This document shows positions 2,998-60,743 of a DNA stretch of 64,000 nt, in pieces (position 1 is the stretch's first letter; each line of letters starts with the position of its first letter). This stretch comes from Hyphomonas polymorpha PS728 (GTDB taxonomy: Bacteria; Pseudomonadota; Alphaproteobacteria; Caulobacterales; Hyphomonadaceae). Made by a program: the position numbers and the translations under genes. The notes under the pieces were generated by a model. That model was not told the DNA's origin. It did not search any database and saw nothing but the letters and a program-made list of their open reading frames with translations. The stretch is taken from NCBI RefSeq assembly GCF_000685315.1, contig NZ_ARYM01000012.1:62001-126000 (forward strand). The letters are read 5' to 3'.

Positions 2998-5226
2998 GCT
3001 GAAGGTGCCCGTCCTCGGGAAGCCCTTGGGCACGACCTTGCCCGCTTGCGCGCGCTGGCCTTTCCACTCTTTCCATTCCTCGAAGGCGCGGTGGCGGCCA
3101 CCGGTGACGACGATCAGGCCGTCGCGCTTGTCGAAGGTGATCAGGTCAGCGAGCTCTGCCCCGCCGCTATAGGATTGCAGCTTGTTGCCTTTGCCGCGCG
3201 GCATTTCGGGCAGATCCTTCAGCGGGAAGATCAGCATCTTCCGGTTGGTGCCGACCACCGCAATCATGTCGCCCAGCACAGGCACGCAGACATTGAGATG
3301 CCCGCCGCCGGTGTTGACGATCTGCTTGCCCGCCTTGCGGTTTGACTCAAGCTCCGTCTCCGGAACAACGAAACCATAGCCCGTGGACGAGGCCATCACG
3401 CGTTTACGCTCGGGCTCAAACTTGAACATATTCACGATGGCGACATTGTCTTCCAACTCGATGGAGAGGCGGATGGGCTCGCCATGGCCGCGCCCCCCCG
3501 GCAGCTTGTCTGCCGCCAGCATGAAGGCCCGCCCATCCGAGGACATGAAGACGAGCTTGTCGGTGCTCATCACCTCTTCCATGAAGCCCGGGCCATCGCC
3601 TTCCTTGAACTTGATCGACTCCGGATCAAGCCCATGGCCTTTCATGCCGCGAATCCAGCCTTGCGCGGAGAGCACCACGGTAACCGGTTCCTTCGGGCGC
3701 GTCGCTTCAAGCGCAGCGGCAAGGTCAACGGTGGGCGCATCTTCAAAGGTCGCGCGGCGGCGGCCAAGGTCCGTTGACGGATCGAACTCGTCGCGCGCAG
3801 CTTTCAGCTCTTTCGACACGCGCATCCATTGACGGCGCTCAGAACCGAGCAGTTTCACCAGCTCGTCTCGCTCCTCGGTGAGCTTTGTGTGCTCGCCCTG
3901 GATTTCCATTTCCTCCAGCTTGCGCAGCGCGCGCAGGCGGAGATTGAGGATGGCTTCGGCCTGAATGTCTGAAATCTTGAACCGCTTCATCAGGACGGGC
4001 TTGGGCTCGTCTTCCGTACGGATGATGCGGATCACCTCGTCAATGTTCAGATAGGCTTTCAGGAAGCCTTCCAGGATGTGCAGGCGCTTCTCGATCTTGT
4101 CGAGACGGAACTCAGCCCGGCGCACCACCACTTCACGGCGATGGTCGAGATAAGCCTGCAGCACATCGCGCAGGCCCATCACCTGCGGCGCGCCCTTGTG
4201 CAGCACGTTCATGTTCATGCTGAAGCGCGTTTCCAGATCGCAGGTCTTGAACAGGCTTTCCATCAGCACGTCCGGCTCAACCGTCTTGGCGCGCGGTACA
4301 AGGACGAGGCGGACATCCTCCGCAGACTCGTCGCGCACATCTTCCAGCAGCGGAACCTTCTTCGCCTCAAGCAGCTCCGAAAGCTTCTCCAGAAGCTTTG
4401 ACTTCTGCACCTGATACGGAATTTCGGTGACGATGATCTGATAGGTGCCCCGGCCGGTATCCTCGACATGCCATCGGGCGCGCATGCGGAAGGCGCCCCG
4501 GCCGGTCTCGTAAGCCTCCAGCATCGAGGCGCGATCCTCGACGATCACCCCGCCGGTCGGAAAGTCCGGCCCCTGAACGAATTCCATCAGCTCTTCGGTG
4601 GTGGCCTTGGGCTTGTCGATCAGGAAGCGCGCCGCATCGATCACCTCGGCAACATTGTGCGGCGGAATGGAGGTGGCCATGCCCACGGCGATGCCCGTGG
4701 CGCCATTGGCGAGGAGATTGGGGAAGCCGGCGGGAAGCACGACCGGCTCCTCATCATTCTCGGCATAGTTGGGGCGGAAATCGACCGCGTTCTCGTCGAG
4801 GCCCTCCATCAGCAGTTCGGCGCCGCGCGTCATCCGCGCTTCGGTGTAACGATAGGCCGCCGCGCTATCCCCGTCGATATTGCCGAAATTGCCCTGCCCA
4901 TCGACCAGCGGATAGCGGACGTTGAAATCCTGGGCGAGGCGGACCAGCGTGTCATAGATCGAGCTGTCGCCATGGGGGTGGTAGTTACCCATCACATCGC
5001 CAACGATCTTGGCGCATTTGCGATAGCCGCCTTCGGGATCGAGCCGCAGGACGCGCATGCCATAAAGGATGCGGCGCTGAACGGGCTTGAGGCCATCGCG
5101 CACATCGGGCAGCGCGCGGGACGTGATCGTGGAGAGCGCATAGGCGAGATAGCGCTTGGAGAGCGCCTCGCTCATCGGCTCATTGATGATCCGGTCCTCT
5201 GGGGGCTCGGTGGTGCGTTTGGACAT
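2992..5226 (-). CDS. parC: DNA topoisomerase IV subunit A
   Basis: Breakage-reunion subunit of topoisomerase IV, which unlinks daughter chromosomes with ParE (encoded at 41011). It is 744 residues long. The winged-helix domain begins near residue 25; YHPHGDSSIYD (residues 82-92) is the quinolone-resistance region with Ser88, and the catalytic Tyr127 lies in AAYRYTEARM. A coiled coil follows around residues 380-460, and the C-terminal beta-propeller is the short ParC kind without a GyrA box. Starts near MSKRTTEPPED and IINEPMSEALSKRYLAYAL support ParC rather than GyrA. The ATG at 5226 is used. A TTAA element shared with parE lies about 80 bases upstream. Confidence 0.95.
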   Translation of the reverse strand: MSKRTTEPPEDRIINEPMSEALSKRYLAYALSTITSRALPDVRDGLKPVQRRILYGMRVLRLDPEGGYRKCAKIVGDVMGNYHPHGDSSIYDTLVRLAQDFNVRYPLVDGQGNFGNIDGDSAAAYRYTEARMTRGAELLMEGLDENAVDFRPNYAENDEEPVVLPAGFPNLLANGATGIAVGMATSIPPHNVAEVIDAARFLIDKPKATTEELMEFVQGPDFPTGGVIVEDRASMLEAYETGRGAFRMRARWHVEDTGRGTYQIIVTEIPYQVQKSKLLEKLSELLEAKKVPLLEDVRDESAEDVRLVLVPRAKTVEPDVLMESLFKTCDLETRFSMNMNVLHKGAPQVMGLRDVLQAYLDHRREVVVRRAEFRLDKIEKRLHILEGFLKAYLNIDEVIRIIRTEDEPKPVLMKRFKISDIQAEAILNLRLRALRKLEEMEIQGEHTKLTEERDELVKLLGSERRQWMRVSKELKAARDEFDPSTDLGRRRATFEDAPTVDLAAALEATRPKEPVTVVLSAQGWIRGMKGHGLDPESIKFKEGDGPGFMEEVMSTDKLVFMSSDGRAFMLAADKLPGGRGHGEPIRLSIELEDNVAIVNMFKFEPERKRVMASSTGYGFVVPETELESNRKAGKQIVNTGGGHLNVCVPVLGDMIAVVGTNRKMLIFPLKDLPEMPRGKGNKLQSYSGGAELADLITFDKRDGLIVVTGGRHRAFEEWKEWKGQRAQAGKVVPKGFPRTGTFSG

Positions 5227-5305
5227 TCTGGCCTCTTTGCAGGTCTCGCCACATTCTGGTGCGGGTTTGCGGGTCAGGATGCCCCGACTCGCTGGAAACA
5301 GCGCA

Positions 5306-5336
5306 GGTTAACAGAAACCTGCGTTTGGTTAAGGAA
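5306..5336 (+). promoter_or_regulatory. Two-part TTAA element upstream of parC, copy 1
   Basis: GGTTAACA at 5306 and GTTAAGGAA at 5328 are separated by 14 bases (start-to-start 22). Exactly the same two words at exactly the same spacing lie upstream of parE at 40909. The element lies in the 133-base divergent region between parC and the extensin-like gene. The two TTAA cores are 21 bases apart, about two helical turns. A regulator of the CtrA type, which recognises paired TTAA half-sites but normally 11 apart, is one guess. Confidence 0.45.
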
Positions 5337-5359
5337 CATCAAAGGCCGCTGCTGCAGAT

Positions 5360-52567: not shown

Positions 52568-53950
52568 CTAGCCTGCGAAGGCCGCAATGCGGGCGCGCAC
52601 CGCCGCCGGATCAGAGGCAAAGCGCTCGAACACTTCGCCCCGGCCCAGAAGCTCGGCGCAGCGGCTCGGCAGCGGGGCGTCTTCGCCGGTCGCTTCCTTC
52701 ACCGTTTCGGGGAACTTGCTCGCCGCTGCCGTTGCCAGCACCACGGTCGCCGCCGCATCCGAAGGCTTGAGGCCCCGTGCCGTCTGCGTGCCAACCGCCG
52801 TATGCGGACAGATCAGCCAGCCGGTCTCGGTGCGGAACCGCTCCATCTCGGCCAGCGTATCGGCATTGTTCACCGAAGCGGCGGAAAGCCCGGTGCAGGA
52901 GAGGCGCGCCCTGGCCGTCTCCGGCAGCTCTGCCTCGCCCGCCTGGGCATAGGTTTCATAGGTCCGGCGCACAGCCTCAGCGTCGCGCCCCGTCACTTCG
53001 AACAGCAGGCGCTCGAAATTGGACGGCACGGCAATGTCCATCGCCGGGCTGGGCGTTGCCACGGCGGCCTGGCGGGTCATCCGGCCGGTGTTGAACACCC
53101 GGGCCAGCGTGTCGTTTTCGTTCACTGCGCAGCGGATTTCGAGGCCGCCCGGCAGCAGGCCGCAGCGGGCCGCCACATAGCCGGCCAGCGCGTCGCCCAT
53201 ATTGCCGCTCGGCACCACGAAGCGCAGCGCCCGGTGGCCGAGCTGCGCGCTGGCGGTGGCGTAATAGACCGCCTGCGCCGCAATCCGCGCCCAGTTGATG
53301 GAGTTGACGCCCGAAAGGCCGATGCTGGCGGCAAACGCCTTGTCGGCAAACATCGATTTGACCATCGACTGGCAGTCGTCAAAGTCTCCGTCCACGGCGA
53401 TGTTGAGGACGTTCTCCGCGCCCGTGGTCGTCATGAACAGGCGCTGCACCGGCGAGACCCGCTCATGCGGATGCAGGATCACCAGGCGCACATTTTTCGC
53501 CCCGGCAAACGCTCCGGCAGCGGCCCCGCCGGTATCGCCGGAAGTCGCGCAGGTCACCGTCATCCGCTGGCCCGAGAGGCCGAGGAGATAGTCATAGATC
53601 TGGCCGATGATCTGCATCGCCACATCCTTGAAGGCCAGCGTCGGCCCATGGTGCAGCTCCATCAGCCAGAGGCCGGGGCCAGCCTGCGTCAGCGGCGCCA
53701 CGGATCGGTGGGCAAAGCGGCCATAGGCCTTCTCGCACAGCTGGCGCATCACATCCTTGGGGATGGCGTCGCCGGCAAAGGCAGAGAGAATGCGCGCGGC
53801 GGTTTCGGCATAGGGCTCGCCGGGTATAGCCGGCGCAATCTGCGGCCAGCTTTCAGGCACATAGAGGCCGCCATCGGCCGCAAGACCGGCAAGGCACGCG
53901 CCGGCAAAATCGACAGGCTCTGCCTGACCCCGTGTCGAGATATACTTCAC
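52568..53950 (-). CDS. thrC: Threonine synthase
   Basis: PLP enzyme converting O-phosphohomoserine to threonine. The 460-residue protein starts MKYISTRG from a GTG at 53950 that overlaps the surf1 stop codon by four bases. The PLP lysine is Lys108 in GPTLAFKDVAMQ, and the phosphate-binding loop is ATSGDTGGAAAGAF. The long fungal/proteobacterial type is clear from VVPSGNMGDALAGY. Confidence 0.95.
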   Translation of the reverse strand: MKYISTRGQAEPVDFAGACLAGLAADGGLYVPESWPQIAPAIPGEPYAETAARILSAFAGDAIPKDVMRQLCEKAYGRFAHRSVAPLTQAGPGLWLMELHHGPTLAFKDVAMQIIGQIYDYLLGLSGQRMTVTCATSGDTGGAAAGAFAGAKNVRLVILHPHERVSPVQRLFMTTTGAENVLNIAVDGDFDDCQSMVKSMFADKAFAASIGLSGVNSINWARIAAQAVYYATASAQLGHRALRFVVPSGNMGDALAGYVAARCGLLPGGLEIRCAVNENDTLARVFNTGRMTRQAAVATPSPAMDIAVPSNFERLLFEVTGRDAEAVRRTYETYAQAGEAELPETARARLSCTGLSAASVNNADTLAEMERFRTETGWLICPHTAVGTQTARGLKPSDAAATVVLATAAASKFPETVKEATGEDAPLPSRCAELLGRGEVFERFASDPAAVRARIAAFAG

Positions 53951-54630
53951 TTACTCGTCTCCCGCCTGAAGCGCAGCCGCCCGCGCTGGTAATGGAAGGC
54001 CAGATACACACCGGCGAGCGCCATGGCGAGGCCCCACCAGGTGATTGCATAGCCAAAATGCCGCTCTGGCGGCAGGCGCGCGCTGTCGCCCGGCATCAGC
54101 AGAGGGTTGGCGACCGGCTGGGGCGCCGGATAGTCCGCACGGATCAGCGTTTCCGGCTCGAACACGCGGGGGATCACCCGCGCCGCCAGATCCGCCGGCA
54201 GCGAGGCGGCCAGCCGCTCCGGATCCAGCGCATAATAGATGCCCTTCTCCGGATCATCCTCTGTGGTGAACGCGTTGCGCCGCTGGGGCGGATGCCAGAG
54301 GCCGCGCAGCGTCAGCGTCTGGGGCTCGCCGGCGGGGTTCACCGGCGGCGGCTCGATCGAATAGGTAATCGTCAGCGGCAGGAAGAGGATGCCCTCTGCT
54401 GTCTCGAACGCGGTCACCTGCCGCCAGGCGGCGTCACCATCGGCATAGGCATAGACGATCTTCTCGGTGCCCGGCAGCGTGGTGCCGGCGATCTCGGCCC
54501 AGTCCGGCTCGGCACCCTTCTGCGCCATCTTCTCCGCATAGCGCCCCCACTGCCAGTTGCCGAACATGATCAGGATGGCGAACGCGATCACGCTCAGCAC
54601 GGTCATGACGGGTAAGGGGCGGAACATCAT
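53947..54630 (-). CDS. surf1: SURF1 family cytochrome oxidase assembly protein
   Basis: A 227-residue inner-membrane protein that helps insert heme a into oxidase subunit I. The N-terminal membrane segment (about 8-25) is followed by the family words FGNWQWGRYAEK; a second segment lies at the C-terminus (YAITWWGLAMALAGVYLAF). The start is one of two adjacent ATG codons at 54630/54627. It belongs to the oxidase gene block but is preceded by a terminator, so it may have its own promoter. Confidence 0.88.
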   Translation of the reverse strand: MMFRPLPVMTVLSVIAFAILIMFGNWQWGRYAEKMAQKGAEPDWAEIAGTTLPGTEKIVYAYADGDAAWRQVTAFETAEGILFLPLTITYSIEPPPVNPAGEPQTLTLRGLWHPPQRRNAFTTEDDPEKGIYYALDPERLAASLPADLAARVIPRVFEPETLIRADYPAPQPVANPLLMPGDSARLPPERHFGYAITWWGLAMALAGVYLAFHYQRGRLRFRRETSK

Positions 54631-54670
54631 CGGTCGGATCCAGGACAAATCGGGACAAGCACGTCCCCGG

Positions 54671-54708
54671 AAAGACAAAGCCCGCCAGCGCTGAAACACC
54701 GGCGGGCC
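54671..54708 (-). terminator. Terminator after ctaE
   Basis: On the minus strand GCCCGCC and GGCGGGC form a stem with a 14-base loop, followed by TTTGTCTTT. It lies in the 121-base gap between ctaE and surf1 and would reduce readthrough into surf1-thrC. Confidence 0.6.
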
Positions 54709-54751
54709 AGATTGTGTCATCCCTTACCGCCCCTTGGGACGGCGCAGAGAC

Positions 54752-55633
54752 TTAGTGGCCGCTGCCGCCGTGGATGAGCCACGGAGCCACATAGACGAAG
54801 GCGAAGAGGAAGAGCCACACCACGTCCACGAAGTGCCAGTACCAGGCGGCAAATTCGAAGCCGAGATGCTTCTTCGGCGTCAGGTTGCCGGCATACATGC
54901 GGATCAGGCAGACGATCAGGAAGATCGTACCGATCACCACGTGGGCGCCGTGGAAACCCGTGGCCATGAAGAAGGCCGAGCCATAGAGCGTGCCGTCATA
55001 CGAGAAGGCCGCGTGGCTGTATTCGAGAACCTGAAGACCGGTGAAGCCGAGGCCGAGCAGGATCGTGACGATCAGGCCGAGCTTTGCACTCTTCATGTTG
55101 CCATGAGCCAGCGCATGGTGGGCCCAGGTGACCGTGGTGCCCGAGAGCAGCAGGACGAGGGTGTTCATCAGCGGCAGGTGGAAGGGGTCAAACATCGTGA
55201 CGCCTTCGGGGGGGAACTGCTTGAAGCGCTCAAGCCCTTCCTGGAACAGCGCGTTTGCAGAATCCCAGTGCGCGCCGACGCGGGCATCCCAGAAGATGGC
55301 GAATTCGAAGAAGGACCAGAACCAGGCCACGAAGAACATCACCTCGGAGGCGATGAACAGGATCATGCCATAGCGCAGGCCGATCTCGACCACGGGCGTA
55401 TGATCGCCCACGCGGCCTTCCTTGATGACGGTTGCCCACCAGCCGAACATGACCCAGATGACCATAGCAAAGCCGATGGCCATGAGCCACCAGGTGCCTT
55501 CAGCCAGGCCAAACAGGCCTTTCATGTAGGTCACACCGCCGATTGCGAGAACGGTGACCGCCAGCGAGCCGAGGAGCGGCCACGGCGAGGGGTTCACCAG
55601 GTGATAATCGTGTTTGACGTCGCCGCCGGCCAT
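54752..55633 (-). CDS. ctaE: Cytochrome c oxidase subunit III
   Basis: A 293-residue protein with seven membrane segments, the third core subunit of the aa3-type oxidase. Family words are HDYHLVNPSPWPLLGSL at the start, SEVMFFVAWFWSFFEF, TTVTWAHHAL and the C-terminal WYWHFVDVVWLFLF. The ATG at 55633 is preceded by GGAGGGGA; a GTG at 55660 would lie in the ribosome site. Separated from ctaG by 75 bases. Confidence 0.95.
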   Translation of the reverse strand: MAGGDVKHDYHLVNPSPWPLLGSLAVTVLAIGGVTYMKGLFGLAEGTWWLMAIGFAMVIWVMFGWWATVIKEGRVGDHTPVVEIGLRYGMILFIASEVMFFVAWFWSFFEFAIFWDARVGAHWDSANALFQEGLERFKQFPPEGVTMFDPFHLPLMNTLVLLLSGTTVTWAHHALAHGNMKSAKLGLIVTILLGLGFTGLQVLEYSHAAFSYDGTLYGSAFFMATGFHGAHVVIGTIFLIVCLIRMYAGNLTPKKHLGFEFAAWYWHFVDVVWLFLFAFVYVAPWLIHGGSGH

Positions 55634-55708
55634 TTTCTCAATCCCCTCCGGAATCGCCACAATACTTTGGCGCTGTTTATCGCTTGCGCGCGCCTTTTCG
55701 CAACTGTT

Positions 55709-56326
55709 TCAGCCCGGCGTGGCCGGATTTGCCGCACCCCCGCCCGCCGGCGCGTCAGGCGCCGCTGCGGGCACAGGCCCGGACACTTCGGTGCGCGGCC
55801 CGTTATACGTGCCACTGTCAAAGAAAGTGTAGCTGAGTGTGATAGTTTCGAGATTCTTCGCCACCCGGTCTTCGACCATGTTGGGCGAGATGAAATAGAC
55901 CACCGGCAGCTTGCGCGTTTCCCCGGCCGCGATCACGCGCTCAGAAAAGCAGAAGCATTCCAGCTTGTTGAAATACGGCCCCGCCAGGTGCGGCGTCACA
56001 TTATAGCTGGCGATGACGCGGATTTCGCGGTCGGTCGGGTTGGTGACCTCGTAGAAGGCCAGGCCATGCTGGCCGATTTGGACTGTCTGGGGCCCCTGCA
56101 GCGCGCGGAATTTCAGCGGCGTATCGGCCACATTCGCGTCGAAGCGGACCTCAACCGTCTGGTCGAGCATTTCCTTCGGGCCTTCGGTAGCCACCCGCGT
56201 GGTGCCGCCAAAGCCGGTCACTTCACAGAAAGCCGAATAAAGCGGCTCTGCCGCAAAGGCGAGCGTCAGCATACCAGCGGCAAAGCCGCCCGCGATCAGA
56301 CCGATCCTTGCGTTCGACAGACCCAT
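55709..56326 (-). CDS. ctaG: Cytochrome c oxidase assembly protein CtaG (Cox11)
   Basis: Membrane-anchored copper chaperone that delivers CuB to subunit I. The 205-residue start is the ATG at 56326, sharing one base with the stop of the preceding gene. One N-terminal membrane segment is followed by a periplasmic domain with the copper motif KLECFCFSE (Cys124, Cys126) and Cys34 in SAFCEVTG. A Pro/Ala-rich tail of about 20 residues is an extra. Confidence 0.95.
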   Translation of the reverse strand: MGLSNARIGLIAGGFAAGMLTLAFAAEPLYSAFCEVTGFGGTTRVATEGPKEMLDQTVEVRFDANVADTPLKFRALQGPQTVQIGQHGLAFYEVTNPTDREIRVIASYNVTPHLAGPYFNKLECFCFSERVIAAGETRKLPVVYFISPNMVEDRVAKNLETITLSYTFFDSGTYNGPRTEVSGPVPAAAPDAPAGGGAANPATPG

Positions 56327-56499
56327 TACATCCGCCCCGAAATGCCTGTTCCGGTTGCCAGCCGGATGATGGTGGTGATCATCACCAGAACGACGAAACC
56401 GGCAAGGGCCAGACCCAGCCACAGGTTCCGCTTCTTGCGGGCGGCGAGTTCTTCCGGCGTCATCCGGCGCACGTCCGGCTTGAGGGTCGGATCTTCCAT
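56326..56499 (-). CDS. Small single-span protein of the cox operon
   Basis: A 57-residue protein, ATG at 56499 after GGAGG. A charged N-terminus (TPEELAARKKRN) precedes one membrane helix (about 27-47, WLGLALAGFVVLVMITTII). Small proteins of this kind are regularly found between ctaB and ctaG in alphaproteobacteria; I do not know a proven function, but an assembly role is likely from position. Stop and ctaG start share a base. Confidence 0.78.
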   Translation of the reverse strand: MEDPTLKPDVRRMTPEELAARKKRNLWLGLALAGFVVLVMITTIIRLATGTGISGRM

Positions 56500-56500
56500 A

Positions 56501-57454
56501 TCAGCCTCCGATGACCGGGAAATGCAGCCCGGCGGCATGCTCCACCAGCACCGCGCCAAACAGGGCGAAGAGGTAGAGAATCGAGAAGAGGAATGTGTTG
56601 CGGGCGAGTTTCATGTCTGCCCCCGGGGCGCCGTCATCCCCCGCCTTCGAGCTCAGGATGGCCAGCGCGCAGACGAGGAAGACCAGGCCGCCCACGCCGG
56701 CGGTGACGGCATAGATCCAGCCGCCAAGACCGGTCGCCAGCGGGCTGAGCGAGACGGGAATCAGCACCAGCGTGTAGATCAGGATCTGCAGGCGCGTGGC
56801 CTTTGCCCCATGCGTGACGGGCAGCATCGGCACCGAGACCTTGGCGTATTCCTTGTGCGCCAGCAGCGACAGCGCCCAGAAATGCGGCGGGGTCCAGAAG
56901 AAGATGATGGCGAAGAGGATCCAGGCGTCCAGCGGCGTGTTGCCGGTGACCGCCGCCCAGCCGATGACCGGGGGGAAGGCCCCTGCGCCGCCGCCGATGA
57001 CGATATTCTGCGGAGTCGCCCGCTTCAGCCACATCGTGTAGATGACGCCGTAATAGAAGATCGAGAAAGCCAGCAGCCCGGCCGCCAGCCAGTTGGACGC
57101 CAGCCACATCAGCATCACCGACACGCCTGACATGATGAGGCCCATGGCAAGGGCCTCTTCCTTCGGCACGGCGCCGGACGGGATCGGCCGCGTCGCCGTG
57201 CGGCTCATCACGGCGTCAATGTCCGCGTCATACCACATGTTGATGGCGCCTGCTGCGCCCGAGCCGAGCGCGACGGCCAGCACGGCAATCGCCGCCATGG
57301 CCGGGTGCATGGTTACGCCCGTCATGCCGCTGGCAGCGGCCAGACCTGCGACCGCTGTGAACACCACCAGCATCATGATGCGGGGCTTCATCAGGTTCAC
57401 ATAGTCAGCAGCCGTGGCGGGGCGTTTGCTGGATGTCGTGTGCGTGTCAGTCAT
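56501..57454 (-). CDS. ctaB: Protoheme IX farnesyltransferase (heme O synthase)
   Basis: A 317-residue UbiA-family prenyltransferase that converts heme B to heme O. Nine membrane segments are visible. The Asp-rich prenyl-diphosphate motifs are NMWYDADIDAVMSRT and the loop around HFWALSLLAHKEYAKVSVPMLPVTHG. Starts eight bases after the CtaD-like small gene and ends one base before the next gene, so the three are co-transcribed. Confidence 0.95.
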   Translation of the reverse strand: MTDTHTTSSKRPATAADYVNLMKPRIMMLVVFTAVAGLAAASGMTGVTMHPAMAAIAVLAVALGSGAAGAINMWYDADIDAVMSRTATRPIPSGAVPKEEALAMGLIMSGVSVMLMWLASNWLAAGLLAFSIFYYGVIYTMWLKRATPQNIVIGGGAGAFPPVIGWAAVTGNTPLDAWILFAIIFFWTPPHFWALSLLAHKEYAKVSVPMLPVTHGAKATRLQILIYTLVLIPVSLSPLATGLGGWIYAVTAGVGGLVFLVCALAILSSKAGDDGAPGADMKLARNTFLFSILYLFALFGAVLVEHAAGLHFPVIGG

Positions 57455-57462
57455 AGGCGGGC

Positions 57463-57954
57463 TTATAGCGGTTTGCCTCGGCGGATGCGCTCAAAAACGG
57501 CGTCTGCGATGCATATGGCAAAGATGACGAGGGAAAGCAGCGCGACATATTCAGCGAGCATGGCGATCATTGATAGCTGCTCGAAGCTCGACTCATAGTC
57601 GATAAATCGCTTCGGAGGGTCCCGGAACGCAACCGAGAGTGACGACCAGAGGGCAAGTAAAGCTGCCATCGTAGCCGTACCCCAATGCAAATAAGCAAGA
57701 ACTTTACGAAACCGAATTCCGGTTACACGGGGCACCAACCAGTAAAACAGTGCAAATACCAAGAACCCACCGAAAACGTAGAATGTGAAGCCCCAGTCAT
57801 GCACAAAGTAGTACGAATCGTAGAGCCCATGATCGGGCATTCGGCTGTTCAATGCATGCGCAATCGCGACCGCTGCAAGAACCGAGATGCCTCCGCTAAG
57901 CGCAAACAGGCTGGCCAAGAGAAATCCGAGCGGGACGAAACGGTTCTGAAGCAT
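57463..57954 (-). CDS. Truncated cytochrome oxidase subunit I-like protein, heme ligands lost
   Basis: A 163-residue membrane protein with four hydrophobic segments. I prefer the ATG at 57954 (GAGAAGG upstream); a TTG at 58014 lies before the hairpin at 57969. Residues 41-130 align without a gap to CtaD 405-494, encoded next door: DHGLYDSYYFV against [23 protein letters not shown] against [18 protein letters not shown] (115-120) against RRYIDY (479-484); I count 22 identities in 90. The heme ligands His417 and His419 of CtaD are Asp53 and Gly55 here, so it cannot hold heme in the same way. Three 60-base blocks have only 28-30 G+C, lower than neighbours. Confidence 0.75.
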   Translation of the reverse strand: MLQNRFVPLGFLLASLFALSGGISVLAAVAIAHALNSRMPDHGLYDSYYFVHDWGFTFYVFGGFLVFALFYWLVPRVTGIRFRKVLAYLHWGTATMAALLALWSSLSVAFRDPPKRFIDYESSFEQLSMIAMLAEYVALLSLVIFAICIADAVFERIRRGKPL

Positions 57955-57968
57955 CAGCCTTCTCAAAG

Positions 57969-58004
57969 CAAAACGGCCCTCCGCACTCTCATGCGAAGGG
58001 CCGT
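57969..58004 (-). terminator. Hairpin between ctaD and the CtaD-like gene
   Basis: On the minus strand ACGGCCCT and AGGGCCGT form an eight-base stem, extended by CGCA/TGCG, followed by TTTTGCTTT. It lies 31 bases beyond the ctaD stop. It would terminate ctaC-ctaD transcripts or reduce expression of the assembly genes that follow. Confidence 0.75.
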
Positions 58005-58034
58005 CTGATTTCAAGCCTTTGTCAGGCCGGGCGC

Positions 58035-59759
<1,725 letters not shown>

Positions 59760-60743
59760 TTAGTTAGAAGCGAATTTGGTTTCGGTTTCAGCCGAAGCGA
59801 TCTGGCTCACCGAAGCGGCGGCGCCGTCAAAATCTCCAGCCTTCATCAGCTCAGCCCAGGCATCGAATTGTGCCTGCGGAACCACGCGGACCTCGATCGG
59901 CATGTAGGCATGGTCAACGCCGCAGAGTTCCGAACACTGGCCGTAATAGACGCCCGGCTCCCGCACGAGGAACCAGCCTTCGTTGAGGCGGCCGGGGATG
60001 GCATCCACCTTGATGGCGAATGCCGGCACGGCCCAGGAGTGGATCACATCAGCGGCCGCCGTGTAGAAACGGACATAGCGGTTTGCCGGAACGACCATCG
60101 GATAGTCGGTCGACAGCAGGCGCAGGCCATCGGTGGGATCAGAGGCGCGGCCCTTATGGATGCCGTTGGAAACGAATTCCACAGGTTCGCCCGTCTCATC
60201 GACGATATCGGGATAGGTGTAGGTCCAGTTCCACTGGTTGCCCTGGATCTTGACGTTCACGAAGCCCTCTTCCGCCGCATCGGGGAAGTAGTTCTTGGTG
60301 AAGGCCTGATGCTCGGCCGACTTGCCGTCCGCCAGCAGCTGCTTGGAGGTGGCAACGATCTGGCCAAGGTTCGGCGTGACGTTCTGATAGAACAGGTTCG
60401 GAAAGGAGAGGCCCGCAATGCCCACCAGGATCAGCGCCGGCACAACCGTCCACACGATCTCGATGGTGGTGTTGTGGCTGAACTTGCGGGAAACCTTGTT
60501 CGCCTTCTGGTTATAGCGGACCACGATCCAGATGAGCAGCGCCAGCACCAGCAGCGTGATGGCCGTGATGATCACGAGCAGCACATTGTGGAACTCATGA
60601 ACGCGCTCAGCGATTCGCGTCGCCGCAGGCTGCATGTTGATCGCGCCGTCTACAGGCTCGGCCGCAAAGGCCGGTGCGGCCAGCATGGCAGCGGAGAGGG
60701 CGGCAAGGATGTGTCGCACGGATTCAACCCCAATTCGTCTCAA
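59760..60743 (-). CDS. ctaC: Cytochrome c oxidase subunit II
   Basis: CuA-bearing electron-entry subunit. A signal peptide, two membrane segments (about 53-75 and 95-115) and a periplasmic cupredoxin domain are visible. CuA ligands: His235 in VIHSWAVP, and Cys270, Glu272, Cys274, His278 and Met281 in CSELCGVDHAYM. The reading starts at a TTG (60743) with AGAGG five bases upstream; a GTG at 60719 gives a shorter, equally good signal peptide. TATAGT at 60760-60755 may be its -10 element, which would favour the GTG. Confidence 0.95.
   Translation of the reverse strand: MRRIGVESVRHILAALSAAMLAAPAFAAEPVDGAINMQPAATRIAERVHEFHNVLLVIITAITLLVLALLIWIVVRYNQKANKVSRKFSHNTTIEIVWTVVPALILVGIAGLSFPNLFYQNVTPNLGQIVATSKQLLADGKSAEHQAFTKNYFPDAAEEGFVNVKIQGNQWNWTYTYPDIVDETGEPVEFVSNGIHKGRASDPTDGLRLLSTDYPMVVPANRYVRFYTAAADVIHSWAVPAFAIKVDAIPGRLNEGWFLVREPGVYYGQCSELCGVDHAYMPIEVRVVPQAQFDAWAELMKAGDFDGAAASVSQIASAETETKFASN

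Follow-up and report, generated by a model that had tools for sequence, protein, structure and literature searches.

The aa3-type cytochrome oxidase operon of Hyphomonas polymorpha PS728 contains, between the genes for subunit I (ctaD) and heme O synthase (ctaB), a short open reading frame (ORF) that resembles part of subunit I itself. This raises the questions of whether the frame encodes a real protein, how it came about, and what such a protein could do beside an intact ctaD. The window, i.e. the whole stretch of 64,000 nucleotides that was analysed, contains the following features at this locus:

53947–54720, minus strand, surf1-like gene
54752–55660, minus strand, ctaE, subunit III
55709–56422, minus strand, ctaG (Cox11), copper chaperone for subunit I; the true start may be more internal
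56501–57454, minus strand, ctaB, heme O synthase, directly downstream of the ORF
57463–57954, minus strand, subunit I-like ORF, ATG start, 163 amino acids, four transmembrane helices, homologous to CtaD helices IX–XII
57508–57522, minus strand, TTTGCCATATGCATC, codons 145–149 of the ORF (FAICI), near its 3' end and ahead of ctaB
57973–58004, minus strand, strong RNA hairpin in the interval from ctaD to the ORF, with TTTGCTTTG after it; fold z-score −5.2
58035–59735, minus strand, ctaD, intact aa3 oxidase subunit I with the motifs HPEVY, AHHMY and HFHY
59760–60743, minus strand, ctaC, subunit II

The stop codon of ctaD lies 80 bases upstream of the ORF, and ctaB begins 8 bases downstream; past ctaB, the same operon continues with ctaG, ctaE and the surf1-like gene. 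An alternative, longer TTG start is present at 58014, and reading from there would cross the strong hairpin. The original prediction, made from the sequence, was of a four-segment membrane protein with a low G+C content. Both features were recovered from the hydrophobic segments, the gene coordinates and the base composition: the G+C content of the ORF was 52.6% (whole window: 63.9%) and its GC3 was 0.61, compared with 0.87 for ctaB and 0.88 for ctaD. The loop charges (+1, −2, +4, −2, +3) gave an N-in/C-in pattern, matching that of helices IX–XII in the topology of CtaD, and the C-terminal stretch of the product was basic. With four helices, as judged from the hydrophobic segments and a structure model, the product is far shorter than a functional aa3 subunit I, which has twelve. 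The neighbouring CtaD (566 amino acids) covered positions 1–435 of the 436 in PF00115, and all three ligand motifs searched for were present.

An ungapped alignment of the ORF to CtaD residues 405–494 had been counted by hand at 22 identities. This number proved exact (22/90), with 14 identities at the next-best ungapped offset. BLASTP aligned 116 positions, again ungapped, with 28 identities (E = 3e-10). The Smith–Waterman score of the pair was 125. Full shuffling never reached it in 1000 trials (maximum 64), nor did 1000 rounds of shuffling inside 10-residue blocks, which preserves the hydropathy pattern (maximum 96), and five further operon proteins scored 25–42. A chance likeness among membrane proteins was therefore rejected on both shuffle sets and the operon controls. 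Taken singly, the ORF matched TIGR02891 (E = 1.8e-8, 33.5 bits) and PF00115 (E = 3.7e-5, 23.2 bits) below their curated cut-offs of 670.75 and 34.8, respectively. In the ORF, Asp53 and Gly55 stand in place of CtaD His417 and His419 of helix X, just as the original prediction stated; on the basis of solved oxidases, we take these two histidines to be the ligands of heme a and heme a3. Other CtaD residues, including the periplasmic Arg pair, were kept in part only. The CuB ligands and the cross-linked Tyr do not occur in the ORF, which is missing helices VI and VII.

The distribution of the gene was determined in relatives. Among 42 genomes searched of the window's genus, Hyphomonas, the ctaD–ctaB gap was measured in 40, the window included. 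Twenty-seven gaps were approximately 102–117 bases long and had no room for such a gene, three (window, G008, G020) were approximately 563–701 bases long and held a subunit I-like gene, and ten were approximately 574–587 bases long and held an unrelated, well conserved gene for a 132-amino-acid protein. Since the ligand-free mini subunit I gene is missing from 37 of the 40 gaps (27 empty, 10 with the other gene), any role must be dispensable, and the patchy occurrence means that the gene cannot be essential across the genus at large. In the family Hyphomonadaceae, 105 genomes were searched and some match was found in 100. A short subunit I-like gene was present in six of the 105, in each case immediately 3' of ctaD:

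G000, the window, genus g1
G008, genus g1, NZ_PNMA01000013.1 (Hyphomonas sp. DS1.007), metagenome-assembled genome
G020, genus g1
G111, genus g21, DHQO01000026.1 (UBA5336), metagenome-assembled genome
G113, genus g21, JALEGE010000076.1 (Hyphomonadaceae CC_bin33), metagenome-assembled genome
G106, genus g19

An assembly artefact as the sole cause was rejected, as the one-contig genome G020 has the same arrangement. Pieces in G108 and G115 were discarded as further members because they are ctaD ends at contig edges. A scan for the nearest relatives gave three loci; at one of them (L147), the match falls in CtaD itself, with the short gene downstream.

The ten other Hyphomonas species (L041, L045, L047, L050, L051, L053, L055, L061, L065, L070) encode a membrane-type protein in the gap, with four helices by eye and no Pfam family. 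It had matches in 16 of the 105 family genomes, the ten included; in G100 and G102 the match was on a contig other than that of ctaD. Homology of this 132-amino-acid family to the ORF was rejected, as the hhalign probability (5.5–6.3%) was comparable to that of the highest-scoring control (ctaC, 4.6%).

Outside the family, 398 sampled genomes of the order were screened for two matches at E 1e-20, a criterion that more diverged copies would escape. Seven genomes had two matches, namely the five sampled carriers and two genomes of other families, G143 and G340, one genome per family, whose extra copies were located with PF00115 beside aa3 genes. A class-wide ctaG search matched 230 of 289 genomes; in 60 operons taken among the matches listed, 52 of which had a full-length CtaD frame, no short subunit I-like frame was present. 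A scan of 232 loci revealed no additional short copy in any aa3 operon.

A profile built from five family members strengthened the assignment. Searched against PDB sequences, it found COX1 chains at E = 3.6e-19. In hhalign, the five-member family matched a panel of CtaD C-terminal parts with 99.8% probability (E = 9.5e-28, 151 columns), whereas the controls ctaB, ctaE, ctaC and surf1 reached 6.9% or less. The Pfam cut-off of PF00115 was passed by the copies of G113 (44.8) and G106 (77.2) and missed by those of G020 (24.6) and G008 (16.7). No better-fitting family was found in Pfam, NCBIfam or PDB sequences. The alignment behind an AlphaFold2 model was shallow, with six rows that included two CtaDs. 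The model was of middling quality (mean pLDDT 71.2, pTM 0.62), with helices at residues 7–37, 54–78, 84–110 and 120–158, the first of them poorly predicted (pLDDT about 50). The helix order was that of CtaD IX–XII, and not another. Among the best 50 of 170 Foldseek matches in the PDB, the top 38 were all oxidase or supercomplex chains of subunit I length. The best was Paracoccus 1qle_A (E = 0.05, query TM-score 0.49, rmsd 5.0 over 106 columns); the longest alignments had an rmsd near 10 or above, and none of the 170 matches reached E 0.001. Because CtaD rows were in its alignment, the model does not count as evidence separate from the sequences. Judged by sequence homology to helices IX–XII, the ORF is a member of the heme-copper oxidase subunit I superfamily, and its derivation from subunit I, as originally proposed, is confirmed.

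Longer members of the family resembled steps of shortening, as read by eye from alignments and frames. The copy of G106 (240 residues) contained the YPPL loop, a helix VI with HWEIY in place of HPEVY, and helices IX–XII with both heme histidines (HWHY), and was without helices I–V and VII–VIII. That of G020 (207 residues) had a helix VI with QPEVM, followed by helices IX–XII with Arg-x-Arg at the ligand positions. In the window, G008, G113 and G111, helices IX–XII alone were present. G106 and G020 thus look like steps in the internal deletion of a subunit I.

The copies in the two other families lie between ctaB and ctaG. G143 (L141, minus strand, about 3422–4621 of the reverse complement) encodes a subunit I copy of 395 amino acids that aligns to CtaD from about the YPPL loop, with QWEVS as the helix-VI motif and Gln-x-Gln in helix X; among the matches listed for 150 order genomes, there was no second copy like it. 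G340 (L142, about 4898–5359, plus strand) encodes a helix IX–XII copy of 154 amino acids that keeps HWHF. Across all eight copies, compared by eye, both histidines were lost in six and kept in two (G106, G340), and the six lost pairs all differed (D/G, P/S, R/R, N/R, D/P, Q/Q). The loss of heme binding looks like a separate step after shortening.

Two of the carriers, G113 (L143, reverse complement 1382–2398) and G111 (L144, reverse complement 1416–2543), encode, elsewhere in the genome, one more subunit I-like protein (about 300 amino acids). In G113 it contains HDTYMMTALWHG and GMPSQYLDY, and in both genomes its gene adjoins an epimerase-like gene, named by eye.

In a tree, a single branch (94/88; 95% of 200 bootstrap trees) set all eight short copies apart from the other sequences. 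Taken at face value, they would share one origin, but this branch joins end branches of 3–6 changes per site and the tree program warns of such long-branch joins. The end branches were 1.3–6 changes per site in seven of the eight copies and 0.25 in G113 (median 0.17). When the copies were placed one at a time, five of the eight attached with a support of 31 or less. For six copies, the best BLASTP hit in the CtaD panel came from a different family of the order, and for G008 and G143 from their own; the margins were small and support neither local duplication nor transfer. The originally proposed partial duplicate thus holds in kind, given the longer members G106 and G020, but a recent in-place copy of the own ctaD is not supported by the best hits, which for six of eight copies lie in another family, or by the long-branched tree.

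A comparison of the window with G008 pointed to exchange. The flanking proteins CtaD and CtaB were 97.3% and 97.8% identical (dS 0.23 and 0.32), whereas the ORF products shared 37.7% identity over 146 aligned codons (53% at the DNA level), with a dN of 0.58 and a dS of 1.49, the latter saturated and uncertain at such divergence. Since replacement change in the ORF exceeds silent change in the flanks, vertical descent alone is hard to square with these values. The two genes are best read, from sequence comparison, as old alleles or imports that were exchanged via the conserved flanks. An outside source fits their GC3 of 0.61 (window) and 0.68 (G008), compared with 0.87–0.91.

What, then, might the product do? 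It is not an oxidase, because the heme and copper ligands are all gone, and it does not complete a shortened CtaD, because CtaD is whole. Its location among assembly genes makes a non-catalytic scaffold or small accessory subunit the likeliest role, and we infer, in line with the original prediction, an assembly or regulatory function. The ORF would represent a subunit I paralogue that was cut back to helices IX–XII, had its heme ligands replaced, and was retained beside ctaD. Its product would be expressed and inserted with both ends inside, like the end of CtaD. It could then dock on nascent CtaD, CtaG, Surf1 or subunit II, since subunit I-like surfaces remain without metal binding, and once docked it may act as a scaffold, a placeholder or a small accessory subunit of the oxidase. 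No conserved feature that indicates a partner was found in the family. In Paracoccus, according to passages of PMC5249081, new subunit I binds CtaG first and then meets Surf1, and between the CtaG and Surf1 complexes there is an extra mass of about 40 kDa of unassigned identity. This mass would leave room for such proteins; it says nothing on the ORF product itself. We hold it to be evenly balanced whether the ORF encodes a real non-catalytic mini subunit I that works in aa3 assembly as a scaffold or placeholder, or belongs to the oxidase as a small accessory subunit.

The same data would suit a stable accessory subunit of the mature aa3 oxidase or of a III–IV supercomplex, in the form of a spare four-helix bundle on the oxidase surface. 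The operon position, the similar short length in four of the six members and the basic C-terminal stretch are consistent with this. A structural subunit present in stoichiometric amounts would, however, not usually be so patchily distributed or diverge so fast, and we consider this explanation unlikely.

Less probable still, the ORF might be a functionless, decaying duplicate that is open by chance. The lost ligands, low GC3, fast branches and the many relatives without the gene would all be expected of decay. Against it stands the selection test on one pair, G113 and G111, in which omega of the ORF was 0.31 (codon bootstrap 0.19–0.47) at a dS of 1.02. For ctaD of the same pair (92% identity, 454 codons), dS was 0.44, dN 0.05 and dN/dS 0.11; for ctaB, dS was 0.87 and dN/dS 0.13. 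The dS of the ORF was therefore close to that of ctaB and about twice that of ctaD, and its omega indicates purifying selection on the protein in this pair, weaker than on CtaD and CtaB. The pair G000/G008, which is near saturation, gave 0.39 (0.20–0.61). All six frames are open over 156–240 codons, with chances by composition of 2e-5 to 2e-2 each, and the five close members retain hydropathy, helix order and a C-terminal FAI/RI motif at 26–59% identity. Decay is accordingly an improbable account of the ORF.

Some of the signals at this locus were at the DNA level, and they led us to consider a DNA function as the reason for keeping the stretch: the 3' end of the ORF could hold a promoter or binding site that serves ctaB and the assembly genes, and the hairpin ahead of it may end the ctaC–ctaD message. 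The sole ATA codon of the ORF lies within TTTGCCATATGCATC. The homologous Ile is also encoded by ATA in G008, G020, G113 and G111, the last two of which have more ATA codons, whereas ATA is absent from the 122 Ile codons of six neighbouring genes in the window's operon. The DNA TTTGCMATA is common to these five close members, in a gene that is 44–67% identical between the compared pairs. The hairpin was more stable than all of 200 shuffles and resembles a terminator within the operon or a structure at an mRNA end, which may set different expression for the structural and the assembly genes; it was not listed by a terminator scan. A GC-rich hairpin-like sequence follows ctaD, by eye, in the Hyphomonas loci inspected, even where the gap is empty; that of the window was the one folded. 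Against a purely DNA-level function, these signals account for about 30 bases and not 490, the scan gave no minus-strand sigma-70-like promoter near the ORF, and G106 has neither the FAICI motif nor an Ile at this position. Protein-level selection in G113/G111 and the 37 Hyphomonas gaps without the gene also count against it. We consider this explanation decidedly improbable for the ORF as a whole; the conservation at 57508–57522 suggests that something besides the protein sequence, perhaps a start site for ctaB, may be kept there. Finally, a heme-handling or heme-sensing protein that uses other histidines, passing heme between CtaB and CtaD, would suit the adjoining ctaB and the HxH pair retained in G106 and G340, but is highly improbable given that no His position in the alignment is common to all members and that two of the three His of G111 lie within the C-terminal tail.

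A non-catalytic mini subunit I of this kind was compared with known systems. Compared with subunit I itself (CtaD/COX1; PF00115, TIGR02891), the ORF is alike in helices IX–XII, helix order, topology and operon, but differs in having four of twelve helices, no heme or CuB ligand and scores below the Pfam and NCBIfam cut-offs. Orphan cbb3 subunits in general span the whole protein, are catalytic and take the place of the normal subunit. The ORF resembles orphan cbb3 catalytic subunits such as Pseudomonas CcoN4 (PMC5697931) in that a gene for the catalytic subunit of a terminal oxidase is present in an additional copy. Unlike orphan cbb3 subunits, it is truncated and ligand-free and lies beside an intact ctaD. 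In split mitochondrial cox1, a separate C-terminal piece (cox1-c) completes a shortened Cox1. The ORF shares with this system a separate gene for the C-terminal part of subunit I, but its CtaD is full length and there is nothing to complete. Pseudoenzymes have a catalytic fold minus the active-site residues and may act as scaffolds or regulators, as outlined in passages of PMC5106787, and the ORF is alike in having a subunit I fold without the ligand residues. We regard it as a pseudoenzyme offshoot within the subunit I family. In open-access literature searched for the protein itself and for orphan subunits, we found no example of a heme-copper oxidase pseudoenzyme and no description of a shortened subunit I paralogue lacking its ligands within an oxidase operon; the passages of PMC4013037, PMC9145763 and PMC8239418 contain no such truncated paralogue.

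Tentatively, the short copies might form a class of their own, mini subunit I proteins without ligands, made by deletion of helices and then of both heme histidines, possibly repeatedly but perhaps just once. Such proteins would serve as a decoy or scaffold in aa3 biogenesis, and their genes would be swapped as cassettes at a ctaD–ctaB site that is otherwise empty or occupied by an unrelated membrane-type protein. Few membrane proteins of aerobic organisms are as conserved as subunit I. The series from G106 through G020 to the ORF of the window offers apparent intermediates of an enzyme subunit becoming a pseudoenzyme. If true, a selected natural subunit I consisting of the last four helices without metal ligands would give a handle on scaffolding during heme and copper insertion.
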